Shown here in pieces: positions 53,580-54,605 of a stretch of 64,000 nucleotides of DNA. The notes under the pieces are model-generated. The model saw only the letters and a list, made by a program, of their open reading frames with translations, did no database searches and was not told the DNA's origin. The position numbers and the translations under genes were made by a program. How positions within the stretch are numbered: the first letter of the stretch is position 1; every line of letters starts with the position of its first letter. The stretch covers positions 92,078 to 156,077 of the forward strand of contig NZ_FUIA01000014.1 of assembly GCF_900163665.1 (NCBI RefSeq). Direction: 5' to 3'. Source of the stretch: Frigoribacterium sp. JB110 (GTDB lineage: Bacteria; Actinomycetota; Actinomycetes; Actinomycetales; Microbacteriaceae).

Positions 53580-54605
53580 TTAGAAGTCCCAGTCGTCGTC
53601 GCTGGTGTCGACGGCTTTGCCGATGATGTAGGAGGACCCGGATCCGGAGAAGAAGTCGTGGTTCTCGTCTGCTCCGGGGGCGAGGGCGGCGAGGATTTCG
53701 GGGTTGACTTCGGTCTCTTCTGGAGTGAAGCGGGCAGGGTAGCCGAGGTTCATGAGGGCTTTGTTCGCGTTGTATCGGACGAAGACGGCGACGTCGTCCA
53801 TGAGGCCGAGCGGTTCGTAGAGCTCACCGGAGTACGCCAGTTCGAGTTCGTAGAGCTCGTCGAGGAGCGCATAGGTGAACTCGCGCATGTGTTCCTGCTC
53901 GGCTGCGGTGTGGGTTTCGAGGCCGCGCTGGTATTTGTAGCCGGAGTAGTAACCGTGTACGGCCTTGTCGCGGAGGATGAGCCGGATCATGTCGGCGGTG
54001 TTGGTGAGGGTTGCGTGGACGGAGAAGTGCAGCGGCAGGTAGAACCCGGCGTAGAGCAGCAGCGAGGACAGCAGCGTGGAGGAGACCTTCCGTTTGAGCG
54101 GGTCATCCCCGTAGTAGTGCGCGAGCACCTTCTTGCACCGTTCCTGGAGCAGGTCGTTGGCGACGGCCCACCGGTACGCGTCGTCGATCTCTGGGGTCGA
54201 GGTGAGCGTGGAGAAGACGGAGGAGTAGGAGCGGGCGTGCACGGACTGCATGAACGCGATGTTCGTGTAGACGGCCTCTTCGTGTTCGGTGCGGGCGTCT
54301 TGGATCTGGCAGATCTCGCCGACGGTGGCTTGTACGGTGTCGAGCATGGTGAGCCCGGTGAACACGCGCATGGTCAGCGTGCGTTCCTCCTGGGAGAGTT
54401 TTTGCCAGGCGGGGAGGTCGTTGGAGAGGGGCACTTTCTCGGGGAGCCAGAAGTTCGCGGTGAGGCGGTTCCATACCTCGAGGTCTTTGTCGTCTCCGAC
54501 GCGGTTCCAGTTGATGGGCCGCAGGCGGGCTGCCGGGTCGTGCCGATAGCCCGGCGGAGTGACGGAGATCTCGGTGATGGGGCGGGTGATATCGGTGAGG
54601 GTCAT
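53580..54605 (-). CDS. nrdF: Class Ie-type (metal-free) ribonucleotide reductase small subunit, QSK variant
   Basis: A 341-residue R2 protein aligning end to end with E. coli NrdF at a constant offset of 22. Asp89, His123, His217 and the radical Tyr127 are kept. The three glutamate ligands are changed: Gln120 (FMQSVHARSY), Ser180 (TLLSSLLLY) and Lys214 (RDKAVHGYY). I checked the codons on the DNA: CAG, TCC and AAG. This Gln-Ser-Lys set defines one branch of class Ie, whose radical sits on a tyrosine converted to DOPA by NrdI and oxygen, with no metal needed in the active protein. The C-terminal DDDWDF tail should dock on NrdE. It is the third gene of the nrdIEF operon. Confidence 0.93.
   Translation of the reverse strand: MTLTDITRPITEISVTPPGYRHDPAARLRPINWNRVGDDKDLEVWNRLTANFWLPEKVPLSNDLPAWQKLSQEERTLTMRVFTGLTMLDTVQATVGEICQIQDARTEHEEAVYTNIAFMQSVHARSYSSVFSTLTSTPEIDDAYRWAVANDLLQERCKKVLAHYYGDDPLKRKVSSTLLSSLLLYAGFYLPLHFSVHATLTNTADMIRLILRDKAVHGYYSGYKYQRGLETHTAAEQEHMREFTYALLDELYELELAYSGELYEPLGLMDDVAVFVRYNANKALMNLGYPARFTPEETEVNPEILAALAPGADENHDFFSGSGSSYIIGKAVDTSDDDWDF

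Follow-up and report, generated by a model that had tools for sequence, protein, structure and literature searches.

Frigoribacterium sp. JB110 carries a class Ie (QSK) ribonucleotide reductase operon with predicted manganese control on a likely mobile element

Genes of the locus and their likely mobile setting

The window, i.e. the whole stretch of 64,000 nucleotides analysed here from contig NZ_FUIA01000014.1 of Frigoribacterium sp. JB110, carries on its minus strand the genes nrdI, nrdE and nrdF of a ribonucleotide reductase (RNR), followed by a PF03358 flavin-reductase-family gene and an AraC-family gene (Table 1). NrdF, NrdE and NrdI score above the cut-offs of the family models TIGR04171, TIGR04170 and TIGR00333, respectively, and NrdE features the motifs LVSCFLL, NLCSEI, SCNLGSLN and a C-terminal GCVSC, as does the canonical NrdE of the host. 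No nrdH was noticed in the operon on inspection of the ORF list by eye. Divergently from nrdI run the genes of a metal ABC transporter, none of whose subunits reaches the cut-off of the manganese models, directly followed by a DtxR-family gene (60345-61037) that yields weaker family-model scores and whose product has presumably lost metal-binding residues. The second regulator of this family (61043-61750) attains 154.6 bits against the NCBIfam MntR model, below its cut-off of 350 bits.

In the following, loci are termed QSK if their NrdF carries Gln-Ser-Lys in place of three metal-binding glutamates, and canonical if these glutamates (EEE) are kept; L and G numbers denote loci and genomes. Among the loci listed, relatives of the second regulator occur in 17 of 46 QSK and 0 of 40 canonical loci, and ORFs clustering with the small frame between operator and transporter in 10 QSK loci (six labels) and no canonical one. 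Since the best 80 loci, plus a few more, were kept, the locus samples lean to close relatives; the genus labels used in counts are in part genome handles, and certain loci come from identical or almost identical records (e.g. L063 and L125).

Table 1. Features of the window and, in the last two rows, of sister loci
Feature	Position	Strand	Basis
tRNA-Leu (GAG), presumed attachment site	40382..40468	+	tRNA gene
Large serine recombinase, 615 aa (Resolvase, Recombinase, zinc ribbon)	40291..42138	-	domain matches
Protein with single-strand binding domain	42437..43723	-	domain match
TraG/VirD4-type conjugative coupling protein	43808..45574	-	TraG/VirD4 domains
IS30- and IS3-type transposase genes	47142..49464	-	domain matches
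ORF with N-terminal primase-polymerase (PF09250) fragment, apparently cut by IS elements	49263..49826	-	domain match
AraC-family regulator, downstream of operon; start codon uncertain	52106..52972	-	domain match
PF03358 NADPH-dependent FMN reductase-family gene	52956..53531	-	domain match; begins about 50 nt past nrdF
nrdF, class Ie (QSK) small subunit R2e	53580..54605	-	ORF, residues, structure match, tree
nrdE, class Ib/Ie-type large subunit R1, 718 aa	54638..56794	-	TIGR04170 over cut-off
nrdI, flavoprotein activase, first gene of operon	56791..57294	-	TIGR00333 over cut-off
Predicted operator AACTACG-GCTTGC-CGAACAC, between divergent nrdI and transporter genes	57433..57452		motif scan
89-aa ORF without Pfam match, located between operator and transporter genes	57466..57735	+	ORF list
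Metal ABC transporter substrate-binding protein, ZnuA/MntA type; start perhaps slightly downstream	57732..58721	+	family models
Metal ABC transporter ATPase	58721..59461	+	best NCBIfam: Mn/Fe transporter ATPase, below cut-off
Metal ABC transporter permease (ABC-3)	59458..60333	+	family models
DtxR/MntR-family protein, more divergent copy	60345..61037	+	family models
DtxR/MntR-family regulator with FeoA domain; likely start 61723	61043..61750	-	family models
Weak operator copy before the 61043-61750 regulator gene, scoring 11.7 (nrdI site: 20.7)	61749..61768		motif scan
N6/N4 DNA methyltransferase	61826..62989	-	domain match
GTP-type PEP carboxykinase, variant	L037:5203-7131, L038:4960-6801, L039:5125-7023	-	ORF clustering
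GTP-type PEP carboxykinase, variant, further loci	L043, L045, L046, L053, L059, L119		ORF clustering

The host assembly (3.75 Mb, 29 contigs) holds a single other NrdF and RNR large-subunit match, which belongs to a canonical EEE nrdHIEF on contig 27; the second, canonical RNR for which a preliminary description of the window had suggested a search is thus present. The NrdF of this operon shares 87-93% identity with the copies from Microbacteriaceae to which it was compared, which places the host in this family. As a class Ib Mn2-Tyr enzyme it resembles that of the window in its NrdI and NrdE partners and, at 64% identity, in NrdF, but like that of Corynebacterium ammoniagenes (1KGN) it keeps the three glutamates which the QSK protein has lost.

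The operon lies on a likely mobile element, as the preliminary description had proposed. A site-specific recombinase gene is present at the presumed attachment site together with a gene for a coupling protein, a primase-polymerase fragment and IS elements, and DNA identities of 91-92% reach across genera. The recombinase frame 40291-42138 crosses the tRNA-Leu gene, as if the attachment site supplied its 3' end. Nine of 28 further genomes from the genus show a DNA match that extends from upstream through tRNA-Leu and ends at the last base of the tRNA, where tRNA conservation would end too. A relaxase or secretion channel was not matched among the ORFs scanned (part of those between 40.3 and 64 kb), and because the contig ends at position 64000, inside an IS110-type gene, the right end of the element and any transfer channel lie beyond view.

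Positions 49524-54828 share 92.0% DNA identity with Mycetocola reblochoni and positions 53582-57454 share 90.8% with Leucobacter sp. 7(1). Among 118 genomes of the host genus searched, only G032 holds an NrdF near that of the window (97%), the others listed reaching at most 67%. One of its two QSK copies encodes an NrdF 97.1% identical to that of the window, whereas the canonical NrdF proteins of both genomes are only 87.3% identical; the second QSK nrdF of G032 (L117:9735-10721, minus strand) is situated at a contig edge and shows 95% identity to the window. A metal-free RNR on an element common to several genera would mean that the trait can likely spread. A plasmid origin was considered and rejected: NrdF matches were obtained in 496 plasmid records, and none of the entries listed (active-site residues unread) exceeds 67% identity. 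Window positions 47000-64000 are not covered to 80% by any plasmid record either, so that an integrated element fits better. On the Rhodococcus opacus plasmid CP129000.1, a related metal ABC transporter is found at 46175-48557 with 78.5% DNA identity; the table of this record places a predicted beta-lactamase at the transporter region, which may be an annotation error.

Residues and class of the small subunit

The nrdF frame encodes 341 amino acids from an ATG start and is devoid of internal stops. The three metal-binding glutamates are replaced by Gln120 (CAG, 54246-54248), Ser180 (TCC, 54066-54068) and Lys214 (AAG, 53964-53966), while Asp89 (GAC, 54339-54341), His123 (CAC), Tyr127 (TAC) and His217 (CAC) are retained. 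Hence, three of the six metal ligands of class Ib are exchanged, and the protein departs from the six-ligand pattern of the dimanganese enzymes. The preliminary description agrees with the sequence base for base in the reading frame and its position, in all seven residues and in the codons of the three replacements, and the offset of 22 to Escherichia coli NrdF recurs precisely in the alignment of residues 26-341 with residues 4-319 of 3n37. The nearest solved chains, 8RAG and 8RAH (E about 1e-159), represent the QSK R2e of Gardnerella vaginalis (Bifidobacterium vaginale), published in 2025. Alignment of residues 13-341 with residues 36-364 of 8RAG, at an offset of 23, maps the seven residues to D112, Q143, H146, Y150, S203, K237 and H240, the very set named in PMC11846895.

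Among the NrdF matches listed that exceed 250 residues, all read either D-Q-H-Y-S-K-H or D-E-H-Y-E-E-H with the one exception of L122, and, this decayed copy aside, the QSK signature is thus not a chance reading. L122 (genome G162; nrdF at 9324-10274, minus strand) was considered as a third R2 variant (Q-Y-E) and rejected, given the replacement of Tyr127 by His, internal deletions, a truncated transporter gene and the lack of an adjoining nrdE match; an intact-looking flavin reductase gene follows, and G162 carries an intact QSK nrdF and a canonical nrdF as well. Treated as a decayed QSK copy, L122 was left out of the tree. This maximum-likelihood tree of 94 rows (89 different; 48 QSK and 46 canonical EEE, VPK sequences left out) separates all 48 QSK rows from the canonical ones by a single branch with a support of 100/100. 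The window NrdF, for which such a phylogeny had been proposed as a check, falls inside the QSK clade and groups with Leucobacter sp. 7(1), Mycetocola reblochoni and G032, its protein identity to the first two and to one G032 copy amounting to 97-98%.

In addition, the linked partners of a class Ie small subunit, nrdI and nrdE, are both present. By signature and clade, the window NrdF is a class Ie QSK R2, in agreement with the preliminary description, and the core genes of its operon are those of a homologue proven in vitro (PMC11846895). Since QSK enzymes have already been characterised, the enzyme itself is not new. According to the accessible part of PMC11846895, the Gardnerella R2e contains trace metal only, and forms DOPA when co-expressed with NrdI, the more so if NrdH and the complete operon are included. 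CDP is reduced solely by the DOPA form together with freshly reduced NrdI. As this enzyme was purified without a radical and is active only with freshly reduced NrdI, the earlier statement that class Ie proteins need no metal once formed should not be taken to imply a stable radical. By homology, the window NrdF would be metal-free as well, and the QSK operon likely supplies deoxynucleotides with no need for iron or manganese.

The Gardnerella system (locus L069) shares with the window the seven active-site residues as well as NrdI and NrdE within the operon, at an NrdF identity of 69%. On the other hand, its operon is nrdHIEF and constitutes the sole class I RNR (PMC11846895, accessible part), whereas the window operon, without a noticed nrdH, is placed on a likely mobile element in a host with a second, canonical RNR. 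Moreover, the flavin reductase, the MntR-type regulator and the transporter of the window, used as queries, found no counterparts beside the operon in L069. The class Ie VPK RNRs of Mesoplasma florum (6GP2/8BT3), Aerococcus urinae (6EBO) and Streptococcus pyogenes likewise comprise a metal-free R2 with a lysine in the same position and require NrdI (PMC8463856 and PMC11846895, as far as accessible), but they feature Val-Pro-Lys and the order nrdFIE and stem mostly from Bacillota, as opposed to Gln-Ser-Lys and nrdI-nrdE-nrdF in the window. A search of the open-licence literature for QSK, nrdF and metal-free returned PMC11846895 only, and one for cheese, Mycetocola and RUSTI returned no paper, both being weak evidence of absence. 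A further arrangement was seen in Bifidobacterium choladohabitans (L062:9489-15070) and in G196 (L125:5374-10956), where a QSK nrdIF pair directly precedes a canonical nrdIEF.

The flavin reductase gene

Unsupervised ORF clustering recovered the flavin reductase in 22 of 46 QSK loci (13 labels), always on the nrdF strand, and in 0 of 40 canonical loci among those listed (Fisher p about 8e-8, a value inflated by relatedness); the more sensitive tblastn yielded three weak matches (31-39%) in the canonical loci L078, L114 and L115, some kb upstream of nrdF. Including a partial copy in L039, 23 QSK loci carry the gene, and in 17 of these its start follows nrdF at a distance of 29-407 nt on the same strand. 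The linkage is kept in other arrangements, in which the gene is located before nrdF (Actinotignum) or further upstream (Helcobacillus). In Actinotignum L068:9118-11002 and L073:9118-10972, it stands directly before the QSK nrdF, and the NrdI query was unmatched there.

Among 198 genomes, seven matches to the flavin reductase were obtained at E <= 1e-40, five of them in the seven genomes in which QSK residues were read and two among the other 191, namely G153 (74%) and G069 (43%); since these residues were read in 30 of the matches listed plus a few more, divergent QSK proteins could be missed in this set. The G153 copy resides on a 3-kb contig that bears no RNR gene, and Neisseria gonorrhoeae harbours a relative at 70% identity. 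Among 22 QSK genomes, selected mainly for the lack of a copy beside nrdF, 6 possess the gene and 16 lack it at E <= 1e-30, the latter including all nine genomes of Gardnerella, Bifidobacterium and Streptomyces. The flavin reductase was rejected as a QSK-specific marker on these grounds: relatives occur without a seen QSK protein (G153, Neisseria) and 16 of the 22 chosen genomes lack it. Hence, it is neither needed for class Ie nor dedicated to it.

Whether the enzyme serves NrdI at all is finely balanced, the chances being even that it performs general quinone or oxidative-stress chemistry of manganese starvation unrelated to NrdI. In line with the latter, the solved structures closest to it belong to FMN, quinone and chromate reductases, the relatives at about 70% have no linked RNR, and Gardnerella, whose QSK enzyme works, is devoid of the gene. 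The MntR table of Corynebacterium diphtheriae moreover contains an oxidoreductase, DIP2262, whose locus number adjoins that of sodA, a likeness by name only (PMC13001254, accessible part). This explanation is opposed by the close same-strand position after nrdF in most carriers and by the persistence of the linkage in rearranged loci. The best reading of the flavin reductase is that of an accessory of the metal-starvation response, which possibly acts as an electron donor for NrdI. Papers joining FMN reductase, NrdI and nrdF were not found in the open-licence literature, which is weak evidence of absence.

Predicted operator, proposed mechanism and sister loci

Palindromes located ahead of nrdI in the QSK loci served as seeds for a 20-bp motif, AASTWCG-N6-CGWASTT. 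Its top score in the 64-kb window, 20.7 with the next best at 13.3, falls on the site at 57433-57452, in a region of 91% DNA identity to L037; within the window, the operator is thus strong before the nrdI and transporter genes and weak before the regulator gene. With the first consensus, at least 11 of 14 positions were matched in 24 of 43 QSK versus 1 of 33 canonical upstream regions, at a shuffle rate of about 0.019. When one genus group at a time was left out, a like motif was rediscovered in every fold, and 26 of 43 QSK nrdI regions from 12 of 16 left-out groups had at most 2 of 300 shuffles scoring as high (0 of 300 for the window). The shuffles are first-order Markov strings rather than exact dinucleotide shuffles, and the sites of L092 and L124 come to lie just inside the assumed start because NrdI starts were set by tblastn. 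This leave-one-out test detected no operator in Streptomyces (0/4), Bifidobacterium (0/6), Gardnerella (0/3) and one Acidimicrobiia locus, and a common matrix gave at best one weak site in the three Gardnerella loci; hence, operator control is not general for QSK.

The common matrix, partly trained on the same sites and applied with a threshold of at most 2 of 200 shuffles as high, marked the region upstream of nrdI in 27 of 43 QSK versus 3 of 33 canonical loci among those listed. It further marked the upstream regions of PEP carboxykinase (8/9), mntA (4/9) and MntR-type regulator genes (6/18), and none of 24 directly before the flavin reductase. These cases are not independent, since PEP carboxykinase and nrdI often share one divergent site and several loci are near copies. 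The operator also precedes the MntR-type gene in L038, L039 and L116 and mntA in L055, L056, L057 and L122, and is thus shared by regulator, transporter and targets over the set of loci. Over whole loci, the motif density at score 13 is 8.7 (QSK) versus 7.4 (canonical) per 100 kb, i.e. the two kinds of loci differ in the position of the motif before genes but hardly in its density.

Alternatively, the class Ie operon might be an ordinary accessory set without metal control, the palindrome belonging to the transporter and its nearness to nrdI being accidental. The QSK loci of Streptomyces, Bifidobacterium and Acidimicrobiia without operator would agree with this, as would an exact genome-wide scan of the host with a simplified pattern, which gave one match versus one in the reversed control, the window site being one mismatch off the pattern. 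We nevertheless regard such an arrangement as improbable, given that Corynebacterium L049, L050, L052, L054 and L055 exhibit two tandem sites before nrdI with no adjoining related transporter, that mntA in L055 has its own operator 9 kb away, and that MntR control of nrdI-nrdF2 has been published for C. diphtheriae (PMC13001254). The accessible part of that source tabulates nrdI-nrdF2, mntABCD, sodA and DIP2262 as MntR-regulated and reports DtxR to be unbound upstream of nrdI; manganese control of such an operon is therefore already in print. The likeness, a manganese regulator acting on a metal ABC transporter and an nrdI-nrdF operon, was drawn from gene names and not from nrdF2 residues or the MntR consensus, and the window differs in the clustering of the regulator, transporter and RNR genes within a likely mobile element. 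Neither a link of MntR to QSK class Ie nor such clustering on an element was found among the open-licence papers listed. What appears to be new is the genomic setting, namely a predicted manganese control across genera and a candidate reductase.

Gene order, residues, clade, element genes and the conserved site are established. Our main reading, to which we assign a probability of roughly 0.7, is that a class Ie QSK operon with a flavin-reductase-family gene, likely mobile, is derepressed through an MntR-type regulator when manganese is scarce and then generates a metal-free, likely DOPA, radical. In this mechanism, the metal-loaded regulator would bind the palindrome at 57433-57452 and repress both nrdIEF and the divergent transporter genes; upon falling metal levels, the transporter would scavenge metal, while NrdI, via its FMN, would hand a superoxide-type oxidant to NrdF. 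Subsequently, Tyr127 would be hydroxylated to DOPA and oxidised to the radical, with Lys214 taking the former Mn1 position, and the radical would be passed on to NrdE. The flavin reductase may help to keep NrdI in its reduced form. With ample metal, the cell would instead rely on its canonical chromosomal class Ib enzyme, which uses manganese. The operator, the candidate repressor and the candidate reductase are concrete and all testable in one cloned operon. That NrdF is merely a decaying, inactive class Ib paralogue, a fate for which its relative L122 provides an example (Tyr127 lost, deletions), is very hard to reconcile with the intact state of its seven signature residues, the NrdE motifs and NrdI, with its near-identity to the Leucobacter, Mycetocola and G032 proteins, and with the conservation of QSK across 48 tree rows.

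A broader and rather doubtful extension would regard the locus as a transferable manganese-starvation kit, which combines its own MntR-type repressor and operator, a manganese importer, a metal-free RNR with an NrdI-reducing flavoenzyme and, in sister loci, a ligand-poor GTP-type PEP carboxykinase, whole metal-sparing sets being swapped horizontally. Among the loci listed, nine QSK loci with seven labels encode such a PEP carboxykinase, oriented oppositely to nrdF. GTP-type PEP carboxykinase binds Mn through Lys, His and Asp, and the solved chains show these residues as active-site contacts. In comparison with the canonical references (the host's own, that of G032 and solved Mycobacterium tuberculosis chains), the variant has Ile for Lys, Gln for His and Ser for the P-loop Cys, with the Asp of GDDIAW kept (7 of 9 aligned). 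The 120 closest homologues carry Ile (119) or Ser (1) in the Lys position and Gln in the His position (118, with 2 unread by the pattern).

Variant-type matches by identity (61-100%; ligands not read in each) occur in 12 of the 22 chosen QSK genomes. At E <= 1e-145, 4 of the 198 relatives harbour one, of which only G186 is a QSK genome by residues read; a role as strict QSK partner is hence unsupported, 3 of the 198 genomes carrying a match without a seen QSK protein. The available upstream flanks of the PEP carboxykinase genes of G181 and G147 contain no strong operator, and the gene start of G130 is off the contig. The genome of the window has the canonical PEP carboxykinase copy only, and the G032 cassette retains a decayed remnant of the gene.
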